The translations under genes were made by a program, and so were the position numbers. From contig JABLXB010000002.1 in NCBI GenBank assembly GCA_013178305.1, positions 372,001 through 436,000 on the forward strand: a stretch of DNA of 64,000 nucleotides, in the 5' to 3' direction. The notes beneath the pieces are model-generated. The model was not told the origin of the DNA. It did no database searches and saw only the letters and a list, made by a program, of their open reading frames with translations. Positions 50,844 through 55,205 of this stretch are shown here, piece after piece (position 1 is the stretch's first letter; each line of letters begins with the position of its first letter). The DNA comes from Bacillota bacterium (lineage in GTDB: Bacteria > Bacillota > Sulfobacillia > JABLXB01).

Positions 50844-51401
50844 TCACGTGCGCCAGTAGACTCCGTCGGCGCGGTCCATGAGGCCGGCGTCGATCATGTA
50901 CCTCCGCAGTGTGGCGTAGTCCGGATGGTACTGCTTGATGATCTCGTTCAGTTCCTTCTCGGGATACTTCCGGTTGCGGTCGAATTTCTCGACCAGCCAG
51001 TTCAGTATGACCTGTCGCTTCTTCGGGCTGGCCGGCAGCTCCTTGATCTTTCCGTCAGGGACGAAGACTCGCATCACTTTTCGCTCGTAAGCATCCCCGC
51101 TCTCATCCGCGGCGATGGCCACCGCCTTGTCGCCCTCGAGGAACCGCCTGGTGAGGGCGCGGAGAGATTCCATGTCGAGCCTGTAATAGTGCACGTTGCC
51201 TTCGCGCCTCATGCTCACGAGGCTCAGGCTCTTCAACTTGTTGAGGTGGTGCGAGACAGTCGGCGCCTGCAGGTCGAGTGCTATGGCTATCTCGTCGACG
51301 CTGCACTCGCGGTTGGCCAACACGCCCACAATGCGGAGGCGGCTTTCATCTGCCAGCGCCTTGAAGAACCTGAGCAACGCCTCAAAGTTCTCTCCATCCA
51401 T
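50844..51401 (-). CDS. ArsR-type HTH regulator with DUF2087 domain
   Basis: A 185-residue protein. The N-terminus is an ArsR winged helix (LADESRLRIVGVLANRECSV, APTVSHHLNKLKSLSLVSMR) without the usual CxC metal site; the C-terminal part (KKRQVILNWLVEKFDRNRKY, HPDYATLRRYMIDAGLMDR) is DUF2087. GGAGATG precedes the ATG. Probably autoregulatory; the signal is unknown. Confidence 0.87.
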   Translation of the reverse strand: MDGENFEALLRFFKALADESRLRIVGVLANRECSVDEIAIALDLQAPTVSHHLNKLKSLSLVSMRREGNVHYYRLDMESLRALTRRFLEGDKAVAIAADESGDAYERKVMRVFVPDGKIKELPASPKKRQVILNWLVEKFDRNRKYPEKELNEIIKQYHPDYATLRRYMIDAGLMDRADGVYWRT

Positions 51402-51731
51402 TTGGCTATCATCTCCGTGCTGGTTGCCGACTCCCTTCACAGCCGCGACCGTATCGGGGGCGGCGACTGTCGTCCCAGGGGCCTGGGAACATCTCCGTAG
51501 ATATGCGTCTAATTAGAAGTATATCGAAGCACCTGGCCCGCGTCAAGCGTTTCGGCAAACGCCCTGCTCAGAGGGGGTGTATAGGGAAATCATCTCCGGC
51601 GCCACTCGAGCGATCCTGTTCACCCTTCATCGAGAGAGCCATATCGCACCGGTTTCGCACCGATCCACTAGACAATGGGAATTCCCTTGACTCGTCCGAT
51701 CCCGTAACCCATTGACGCTCTAGAAAAGATT

Positions 51732-51806
51732 TGGCTCCTCGAGCAGGATTCGAACCTGCAACCCTCCGGTTAACAGCCGGATGCTCTACCGTTGAGCTAT
51801 CGAGGA
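51732..51806 (-). tRNA. tRNA-Asn (GUU)
   Basis: A 75-nt tRNA with CCA. Acceptor TCCTCGA / TCGAGGA, discriminator G, anticodon loop CTGTTAA with GTT, T-arm GCAGG-TTCGAAT-CCTGC. Confidence 0.95.
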
Positions 51807-51865: not shown

Positions 51866-53905
51866 TTAACGGCCGGCGCTGGTAGAACGCTGTTTCGGCT
51901 CCCACCGCACCCATCCTTTGAGCGTCAGGACCGCACGCCCGGGGCCGAGATCGTTGGTGACCTGCCTCTCAGACCCGGCCACACGGAGCACCACTCCGGA
52001 ACGTACACCGCCTGACACGTGTATCGCGCAGTTCTCGGCGGCGGCCATGCCGGCAACGGCGCTGCCGGTGAGCGATCTCATGCGCCCCCGCAGGCCCGCC
52101 GCTTCGAGAGCGGCGCGCGCCGTCTCGGCCATCGCCAGCAAGTCTTCGTAGAGCACGGAACGCTCACCGGCGCTCAGGGCCGTTTTCGTACCCAGTTCGG
52201 TCCCGGCCCGCCCCACGTGCACGTCGCCCGCAGAAACGACCGCTCCCCCGCACACCCACGCATTCTCGGCATGCACACCGCGGCACGCTTCGATTCTCGA
52301 CCGCAACGTACGTTCACCGATGAACACCCGGCCCACGGCCTGGACCGTTGATATCTCCACGAACCTTGCCCGGAGGTCGCCACCCGCAAGGATGCCGCGT
52401 CCCGTGCACCCGGTTATGCCGCCGCCCACCACGACGTCGCCGCCGGCGCTCACCTCGGAGCACTCGATCCGTCCGGCGACCACGTCCCACGCGGCCATGA
52501 CGCAGGAACGCGGCCCTATCGCCCCGCTTACCACCACCGTCCCGGGGAACTGCAGCGTCCGCCCCTCCTCGATCGATTCAGCCCTCAACACGGGCACCAG
52601 TGCCAGGAACGACCCACCTACGAGCCAGGCCTGGCCGTCGATGGATGCGACTATGTCAGCACCGTCAGGGGAATCCTCGACGTTGGGTCCCCGCTCGACG
52701 GTGACACTCGATCCGTGCCTGGCCTTCAGCCGGACTCCGGTTACGTCGATCCCATCCACGCCCTGCGTGGGCGGTTCCACCCTGACGAGCGCCTGGCCCT
52801 TCGAGACCCATCCCTTTACCACAGCTGGCTCAGCTACGGCGCCTGTTCCATCGCCCGCTCCGGTGCCCGCCCCAGAGCACGCGTCCGCGTCGAAAAGGCG
52901 AATGGCCCGGCCATCCCGCCCATTCCTCGCAGGAGTGGCCCAGGCCACAACGGCCTCCTTCCCCGGCCACGGAGACTCCACGAGCTCCGCCACGGCCTCT
53001 TCGGCGATGCCGTGAACCACGCCCGCCGTGTGGACCTCGGCGCACACCACCACGAGGTCAGGAAACGCGCCGGCCCCCGGGCCGTCGGCCCACGGCCATA
53101 TCCGGGCGGAGGCGTCCATCCTGTTCGGGGACAGCGTCGTCAGCACGCGGTTAACCTGCCCCAGTACGTGCAGGGAGGCCAGGGCGAACAAGGCGCCCGC
53201 GGAGCGCTGTGTGCACTTCAACACGCGCGCTACCTCCGTTATGGTGAGCCCCTCGAAATGGTACAGCGTGAGGGCCAGCCGTTCGTTCCCTGGAAGCCTC
53301 GCGATCGCCCCCGCCAGCGCGCCTGTGACCACCTGCCAACGCTTCGCCACTTCCGTCTCATCGTTCTCACCGAAAGCGCCCCCGCCTCCGGTCGTTTCGC
53401 ACATCAGGCTCCCGCAGGTGTGAATGAGGACGGCGAGGCTGACTCCCGAAAGGAGGCCCTCCTGCTCTTCGCGGGACAGGCAGGGCCGTCCCAGGACAAC
53501 GTCGGCGGGAGGCAACACGCCACCCTCCCTGAATCCTACCGTGCAGTTGTGCAGCAGAGGGGAAATAACCCTGTGTACGGCCGCGTCGGACCCCATCGAG
53601 CGGCGGAGACCGTCCAGCACGGCTGTGCGGGTCCTCGAAAGGAGGTGTGTGTCGTACTTGACGTCGCCTGCAGGCGGCGCCTCGTCCAGCAGGTTCTGGA
53701 GTTCAGCCGCCGCGTAGTCGGTAAGCAGTTCCATGGGCACGCCCGGAGGAAGGTCAAGGGCCAACCGTTCCACGGCCCACTTGAGGAGTTCGGCGCTTTC
53801 AATAATGAGGCGCGACCTGACCGCCTGGTCGCGAGTAACAAGGTATTCGCACCACAACCTGTGCCGCCTTGCGGATCGTTCCTCCACGGCTAACACCCCG
53901 GGCAC
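51866..53905 (-). CDS. fusion of FliA-like sigma-factor regions with a FapA/DUF342 domain
   Basis: A 679-residue protein. Residues about 15-105 resemble sigma-28 region 2 ([44 protein letters not shown]); residues about 205-260 resemble region 4 ([40 protein letters not shown]). After a Gly/Ala linker, residues about 360-645 form the FapA/DUF342 beta-helix ([40 protein letters not shown]). The sigma part is degenerate, so it may not be an active sigma factor. It stands alone beside tRNA-Asn. GTG start at 53905 or 53887. Confidence 0.75.
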
Positions 53906-54104: not shown

Positions 54105-55205
54105 TTACTCCAGGAAGTCTTTCAGCTTCTTGCTCCTCGAAGGATGGCGCAGCTTGCGCAGCGCCTTCGCTTCGATCTGCCTGATACGCTCCCTCGTCAC
54201 CCCGAACACCTGGCCGACCTCTTCGAGCGTCCGCGCCCTGCCGTCGTCCAGCCCGAACCTCAGGCGCAGCACTCGCTGCTCCCTCTCGGTGAGCGTGTCC
54301 AGGACCTCCTCAAGCTGCTCCTTCAGCAGCTGGAACGAGGCGGCGTCGGCCGGCGCGGGGACGTCGGCGTCCTCGATGAAGTCCCCGAGGTGGCTGTCTT
54401 CCTCCTCACCTATAGGAGTCTCCAGCGAGACCGGCTCCTGCGCTATCTTCATGATCTCGCGCACCCGCTCGACGGGGATACCCATCTCGTCCGCTATCTC
54501 CTCGGCGAGCGGCTCACGCCCGAGCTCCTGCAATAGCTGGCGCGACACGCGGATCAGCTTGTTTATCGTCTCGACCATGTGTACCGGGATCCTGATGGTG
54601 CGAGCCTGGTCGGCGATGGCGCGGGTTATCGCCTGCCTGATCCACCAGGTGGCGTACGTACTGAACTTGTAGCCCTTCCGGTAGTCGAACTTCTCGACAG
54701 CCTTGATGAGGCCCAGGTTCCCTTCCTGTATGAGATCGAGGAACAACATCCCGCGACCGACGTATTTCTTGGCGATACTGACGACTAGCCTGAGGTTGGC
54801 CTCGATGAGCTTCCTCTTGGCCTCTTCGTCGCCCGCCTCCATGCGCCTCGCCAGGTCGATCTCGTCCCCGGCGGTAAGCAATGGCACACGCCCGATTTCC
54901 TTCAGGTACATCCTGACGGGGTCGTCGATCGCGATCCCCTCAGGGACCTGGATGTCCGCCTCGGGTTCCACGTCTCCCGCGGTTACATGAGCGTCGCCGG
55001 GCTCGAGCGGCTCGAGTACCTTGCCGCCGTCCAGGACCTCGATCCCCAGGTCGGACAGCGCTTCGTATACCTCGTCTATCTGCTCCGGAGTGAGGTCCAC
55101 TCCCTGCAACGAGTCCATTACCTCGGCGTAAGTGAGCACGCCCCGCTCCTTGCCGAGCTTGATCAGGTCCTGGACCCCTTCGATTGTGATCTCCCTTTTG
55201 CTCAA
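54105..55205 (-). CDS. rpoD: primary sigma factor RpoD (SigA)
   Basis: A 366-residue housekeeping sigma factor: region 1.1 at the N-terminus, [17 protein letters not shown] (1.2), [20 protein letters not shown] and [20 protein letters not shown] (2.1-2.4), [11 protein letters not shown] (3.0), and [20 protein letters not shown] (4.2). Length is typical for Firmicutes. It follows dnaG, the conserved macromolecular-synthesis operon order. Confidence 0.98.

Follow-up and report, generated by a model that had tools for sequence, protein, structure and literature searches.

A sigma28-FapA fusion protein encoded downstream of rpoD in one family of Bacillota

One gene in a 64,000-nucleotide stretch of a Bacillota bacterium genome (hereafter the window) appears to encode a flagellar sigma factor and FapA in a single polypeptide, which raises the question of whether such a protein is real and, if so, whether its sigma part still directs transcription. 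FapA is a flagellar protein whose role outside Vibrio is little defined and whose gene often follows fliA, and a natural FliA-FapA fusion could be taken as evidence of the Rosetta-stone type for FapA and FliA acting together. Should the sigma half prove to be a mimic, sigma mimicry would reach beyond PhyR to flagellar regulation. The fusion gene is one intact frame without an internal stop; its parts and neighbors are as follows.

51866..53905, minus strand: sigma28-like/FapA fusion gene (open reading frame, 679 codons from the first GTG)
53594..53872, minus strand: part like sigma regions 1.2-2.4 (residues 12-104; residue comparison, profile match over 92 columns, model helices)
53396..53593, minus strand: part like sigma region 3 (residues 105-170; model, residue comparison, profile match; most diverged)
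53153..53359, minus strand: part like sigma region 4 (residues 183-251; Pfam region 4, residue comparison)
52622..53137, minus strand: FapA_N domain (residues 257-428; Pfam 75.5 bits, cut-off 27)
52160..52552, minus strand: FapA beta-solenoid (residues 452-582 by Pfam; 71.3 bits, cut-off 31; fold like the MinC C-domain)
51896..52159, minus strand: C-terminal helices and last strands (residues 583-670; alignment, model)
54105..55205, minus strand: rpoD, upstream neighbor (kept at all three fusion loci)
51732..51806, minus strand: tRNA-Asn, downstream neighbor (also at fusion locus L005, not found at L004)

Because the alignment with the fusion orthologs begins at residue 7, the GTG at 53887, which would give a protein of 673 amino acids, is a likelier start than the first GTG. 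The layout proposed in the original prediction, a sigma-like N-terminal half followed by a FapA-like C-terminal half, holds, but the FapA part covers about 420 residues (about 254-670) instead of 300. Of the sigma part, regions 2 and 4 had been named; the real span is from region 1.2 to region 4.2, with region 3 recognizable by profile alignment.

Distribution and locus of the fusion gene

A search for the same architecture and genomic context in 61 genomes (its own and 60 relatives) returned full-length fusion orthologs in both same-family genomes, which belong to two other genera (47% and 44% identity), and a scan of contigs found the same two orthologs in metagenome-assembled genomes of Bacillota bacterium (JANLGA010000013.1 and JAHDPS010000035.1). 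Both lie directly downstream of rpoD, so that the fusion follows rpoD on the same strand at all three loci. The concern that a sequencing error had joined two genes loses its force with a fusion that is kept in three genera: the orthologs in the two other genera make an assembly or frameshift artefact very unlikely. A tRNA-Asn gene comes after the fusion at two of the three loci (the window and L005); L004 and L033 showed none. Since rpoD is followed by tRNA-Asn after a gap of roughly 85 bp in a more distant relative (G006, locus L093), this one genome suggests that the fusion was inserted into an older rpoD-tRNA interval. The same order was seen in G014, with the two genes ~1.1 kb apart, and the rpoD loci of the remaining 10 of 12 relatives had other contexts or no tRNA within the stretch examined. 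No sigma70-type promoter was found directly upstream of the fusion at the three loci scanned. A terminator-like site follows rpoD at L005, but the scan showed no such site in the window or, on the coding strand after rpoD, at L004. Just upstream of tRNA-Asn, the window (51853-51825, minus strand) and L005 (3521-3549) both carry a promoter of strong consensus with the same hexamers, TTGACT-N17-TATAAT. Downstream of the tRNA in the window is a frame for a small ArsR-like winged-helix regulator (50844-51440, minus strand), and a different ArsR-like frame lies downstream of the fusion at L005; both were named by eye.

A single polypeptide with both parts had been considered unusual, and the wider searches agree. 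Among 154 genomes of the class, an uninterrupted full-length match was present in three alone, namely the genome of the window (G000) and the two same-family genomes (G001 and G002). In a sample of 398 genomes drawn evenly from the phylum and searched with an E cut-off of 1e-25, the only uninterrupted full-length fusion among the matches listed was that of the window's own genome, and each of the other listed matches that cover much of both halves holds a stop. When stop-to-stop frames were compared in 114 loci, the sigma and FapA parts shared a frame only in the loci of these three genomes. Candidate fusions in G143, G141, G140 and G068 and in 20 further regions with long open frames were rejected, as no frame held both parts; both genes were present in 18 of these 20 regions, which had been picked for long-looking frames, and in the other two (L103 and L109) a FliA frame was lacking. 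In 13 of the 18 loci (L095-L102, L105-L108 and L114), the fliA and fapA frames are in-frame with one stop between them. In the library of papers searched, which covers few subscription journals, no description of a FliA-FapA fusion was found. The fusion is real, conserved, and restricted to one family among the genomes searched. Its domains are known ones; what is new is their combination, which none of the other genomes searched showed, and a former sigma factor that has apparently become a protein of another kind.

Sigma and FapA homology of the two halves

The N-terminal half had been proposed to be homologous to sigma28, and family models, Pfam region 4 and profile-profile comparison all bear this out. 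NCBIfam FliA/WhiG models matched the window fusion from residue 11 onward (E down to 9.8e-18, at 64.7 bits where the cut-off is 343), and the curated FliA/WhiG model TIGR02479 gave 43 bits, under its cut-off of 189.6. Pfam Sigma70_r4_2 was above its cut-off of 25.7 in all three fusions, with 27.9 bits in the window (residues 196-237) and 30.0 and 35.5 bits in the other two. Pfam reported neither sigma-70 region 2 (PF04542) nor region 3 (PF04539) in any of the three, the E values of these regions being up to 1 in the window and up to 0.01 in the other two, and the FliAs of the same three genomes passed Pfam for all three sigma regions. With phmmer, residues 16-240 matched WhiG in the PDB (6pfv, 7.8e-13). 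In order to test the sigma homology independently, we used a profile to which the N-terminal halves of the three fusions were the only contributors, without FliA rows. Compared with a profile of 17 canonical FliAs, it matched over 222 columns, at an HH probability of 99.8 and E 1e-29, and its first 125 columns matched the FliA profile over 92 columns (probability 98.8); against the PDB it found WhiG at E 1.2e-24. Because the fusion-only profile matches canonical FliAs over this length, the N-terminal half is, on sequence grounds, a true FliA homolog from region 1.2 to region 4.2.

Given an alignment with FliA rows, the structure prediction that the original prediction had called for assigns a sigma fold to the N-terminal half, and to this extent the refuting condition that it lacks such a fold does not hold. 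The full-length model, made from a 31-row alignment that included FliA and FapA rows, had a mean pLDDT of 87.9 and a pTM of 0.60, with low confidence at residues 171-179 and 344-358, and its N-terminal helices correspond to those of sigma2, sigma3 and sigma4. With the last helix of sigma4 reaching residue 251 and the first FapA strand starting at 254, hardly any linker separates the two. Folded without an alignment, the N-terminal half gave a pLDDT of 41.9, which is poor and uninformative. The best Foldseek matches of the model were WhiG with RsiG and FliA with FlgM, i.e., forms bound to an anti-sigma factor. Of the solved sigma structures, FliA or WhiG with a bound anti-sigma factor fitted the model best, namely 9wsf by VIA-align (Z 14.7, rmsd 4.6, 214 residues aligned) and 6pfj (Z 13.6, rmsd 4.3, 214 aligned), whereas RNAP-bound FliA (9wsm) aligned only at an rmsd of 26.0 over 149 residues by VIA-align. 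This compact conformation, similar to the anti-sigma-bound forms, may reflect a preference of AlphaFold.

The sigma part had also been called degenerate, and it is. Of 60 positions conserved in at least 90% of a set of 35 canonical FliAs, 26, 24 and 26 are kept in the three fusions, and the FliAs of the same genomes keep 60 of 60. Signature residues of regions 2.2 and 2.4 are replaced and the recognition helix of region 4.2 is rewritten. The losses include D57, G62, G65 and A69 in region 2.2, E82, A85, G91, W102 and P104 in regions 2.3/2.4, and R239, Q242, H244, R250 and R252 in region 4.2, with residue roles and region borders following the usual picture of sigma factors. The identity of the fusion to FliA of the same genome is 35% in regions 1.2/2.1, 24% in 2.2, 31% in 2.3-2.4, 14% in region 3, 53% in region 4.1, the best-kept part, and 26% in region 4.2. 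Among the fusions themselves, region 2.2 is 44% identical, the lowest shared part next to region 3. At 19 of the replaced FliA positions, all three fusions carry an identical new residue, and the sigma part has 93 positions that are invariant among the fusions, 34 of which hold a residue seen in at most one of the 35 FliAs. The shared replacements suggest a protein that was probably reshaped and constrained instead of randomly decayed, which three related sequences cannot prove. Because the residues of region 2.2 (RNAP binding), of regions 2.3/2.4 (-10 recognition and melting) and of region 4.2 (-35 recognition) are replaced, many of them identically, it is strongly suggested that the sigma2-sigma3-sigma4 scaffold has been kept and that the promoter-recognition role is gone; most likely, the fusion is not a working promoter-specific sigma factor. 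The N-terminal half resembles FliA/sigma28/SigD/WhiG (group 3) in its homology over 222 columns, its Pfam region 4 and, as modelled with FliA rows in the alignment, its three-domain fold, but differs from them in lacking Pfam regions 2 and 3, in its replaced core- and DNA-contact residues, in the attached FapA, and in scores far under the curated FliA cut-offs.

The FapA homology proposed for the C-terminal half is confirmed by both Pfam domains, FapA_N and FapA, which are above cut-off in all three fusions. This half, too, is diverged from FapA. The solenoid profile is matched at positions 17-150 (window), 17-158 and 16-168 of 272 in the fusions and at 1-272, 1-272 and 1-267 of 272 in the FapAs of the same genomes, 27-28 of 39 conserved positions are kept, and the C-terminal part is ~35 residues shorter than that of FapA of the same genome over the same alignment columns. 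Thus, the fusion shares both domains with FapA (DUF342; PF20250 and PF03961) but differs in its partly matched solenoid profile, in its shorter C-terminal helical part, and in not being a separate gene beside fliA, since it sits beside rpoD. In the model, the end of the solenoid is folded like the MinC C-terminal domain (5xdm; Z 10.8, rmsd 1.8, 102 aligned), but Pfam finds no MinC domain in the fusion, and likeness of fold shows no function. A third DUF342 protein of the same genome is encoded by a 699-codon frame (L003:862-2958) with Jag_N, FapA_N and FapA domains and a sub-threshold match to MinC_C.

Paralogy and origin of the fusion

The genome of the window has a flagellar operon with FliM/FliY-, FliP-, FliR-, FlhB-, FlhA- and PilZ-like frames (named from their sequences), followed by separate fliA and fapA genes, and both same-family genomes also carry separate fliA-fapA pairs. 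Because the normal pair remains in all three genomes, the fusion is to be seen as a paralog and not as the flagellar sigma factor itself. Comparison of the sequences establishes that a fliA-fapA gene pair was evidently copied, joined end to end and kept as one protein downstream of rpoD, and we regard the architecture and paralogy of the fusion as nearly certain. The original prediction had stated that fapA is commonly found near flagellar sigma genes, and FapA was indeed encoded within 565 nt downstream of FliA in 25 of 35 FliA genomes, a count that is biased upward since the loci were picked by the search; 2 of the 10 genomes lacking it had <500 nt of sequence available. Since fapA commonly follows fliA, often in-frame past a single stop, we infer that loss of the stop in a copied pair would be an easy route to the fusion.

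Trees of both halves group the three fusions together at the end of a long branch, with 100/100 support. The trees do not single out the place where this clade attaches, nor thereby the fliA-fapA pair that was copied, and the FapA tree carries a long-branch warning. Between genera, identity is 44-55% for both halves of the fusion, 78-82% for FliA and 68-76% for FapA of the same genomes, and the RpoD of the family relatives is 88-92% identical to that of the window. In the sigma part, comparison between genera gives differences of 0.29-0.44 at first, 0.25-0.28 at second and 0.57-0.65 at third codon positions. The gene is conserved but fast-evolving.

FlgM was above cut-off in all three fusion genomes, a result to be read with the matches of the FlgM model to 11 of 14 control genomes, above cut-off in 3; flagellins were also found in all three. 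TAAA-N15/16-NNCGATAN sites, the form typical of sigma28 promoters, occur at the flagellin and flgM loci. No sigma28-type promoter sites were found in the stretches upstream of the fusions, nor in the stretch upstream of the separate fliA.

Possible roles of the fusion protein

The roles put forward in the original prediction, a sigma-like anchor, an anti-activator or a regulator that the beta-helix would release, stand as candidates only. The explanation that we tentatively prefer, while holding it to be well short of probable, is that the fusion is a sigma28 mimic or adaptor. The sigma28-like half would act by protein contacts, without directing transcription, and the FapA half would position the fusion at an assembly site or the pole, or make it multivalent, with the net effect that the amount of free FliA is tuned. 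Because region 4.1 is the best-kept module (53% against 14-35% elsewhere), it may be what touches a sigma28 partner, most plausibly the anti-sigma factor FlgM, though FlgM as the partner is itself doubtful. In a more specific and rather unlikely version, the FapA solenoid would fix a sigma28 look-alike that does not transcribe at the assembly site or pole, where it could draw FlgM away locally and so free the real FliA; if true, this would be a spatial form of sigma mimicry, not controlled by phosphorylation, and ordinary FapA would be expected to work physically with FliA. The FlgV paper (PMC11607428) notes that sigma28 and FapA genes make up a sub-module. In Vibrio, FapA is reported to be a flagellar assembly factor that HubP recruits to the pole and that is bound solely by dephosphorylated EIIA-Glc (PMC12918733 and PMC6877527). 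A parallel in manner of working only is PhyR, a sigma mimic in the general stress response of alphaproteobacteria (PMC4598750), in which a non-transcribing sigma-like part is likewise joined to a second domain, with the true sigma and anti-sigma factors in the same cell. FliA and FlgM likewise occur together in all three fusion genomes. However, the fusion is derived from sigma28 instead of an ECF sigma factor, Pfam finds no receiver domain in it, and the PhyR sigma-like model PF22233 gave 11.6 bits with the window fusion (cut-off 27). The main objection to the mimic is that FlgM binding could have been lost along with RNAP binding, because the two surfaces overlap: FlgM covers those parts of sigma2 and sigma4 that determine RNAP binding (PMC4598750), and the surface of region 2.2 is changed. 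Furthermore, the position of the gene outside the flagellar operon and without an upstream sigma28-type promoter counts against this explanation, and region 4.1 may have been retained merely as a hydrophobic core. The fast divergence of both halves, which would also suit relaxed constraint, the diverged FapA half and the poor N-terminal model obtained without an alignment weigh against it as well.

Nearly as likely as the mimic, and thus itself improbable when taken alone, is a purely structural or localization role, in which the sigma half has been turned into no more than a helical domain for interactions, and the protein serves positioning or assembly in the manner of FapA, with no part in transcription. 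This would agree with the disappearance of the residues for DNA and core contact, with the clear FapA_N domain and solenoid, with the occurrence of the MinC C-domain type, which the solenoid resembles, in MinCD filaments (6riq), and with the polar recruitment of Vibrio FapA; yet a plain helical domain does not readily explain why region 4.1 is far better kept than the other sigma parts, or why sigma2-3-4 was retained whole and not trimmed. The good retention of region 4.1 and the recognition of region 4 by Pfam in all three fusions could also fit a competitor, or anti-activator, of which region 4.1 would bind the beta-flap of RNAP or another surface of a FliA partner and block the real FliA. 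We consider this quite unlikely, since a contact through sigma4 alone is normally weak and the promoter-site scan gave no sign of co-regulation with flagellar genes. It is about as improbable that the fusion still functions as a sigma factor for a promoter class of its own, with the FapA half holding or positioning it. Such a factor would be expected to show the sub-family-specific conservation that we observed, and the full sigma2-3-4 length and the net positive charge of regions 2.3-2.4 (+2 to +4) and 4.2 (+3 to +5) would suit it, but Pfam does not report region 2, none of the three fusions retains the FliA positions W102, P104, H244 and R252, and little is shared among them in region 2.2, through which sigma mainly contacts core RNAP (PMC4598750). 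Least probable is a decaying duplicate under relaxed selection and without a specific function. Relaxed constraint would also fit both halves evolving much faster than FliA, FapA and RpoD (44-55% identity versus 78-82% for FliA), but the frame has stayed intact in three genera that differ by 8-12% in RpoD, the gene occupies the same genomic place in all three genomes, the codon-position pattern is typical of a translated gene, and the sigma part speaks for constraint with 19 derived replacements common to the three copies and 93 positions that are invariant.

Elsewhere in the window, a simple scan found sigma28-promoter-like sites on the plus strand at 2233 and 14885 (TAAA-N15-ACCGATAA, with one mismatch), which mark possible FliA-controlled genes.
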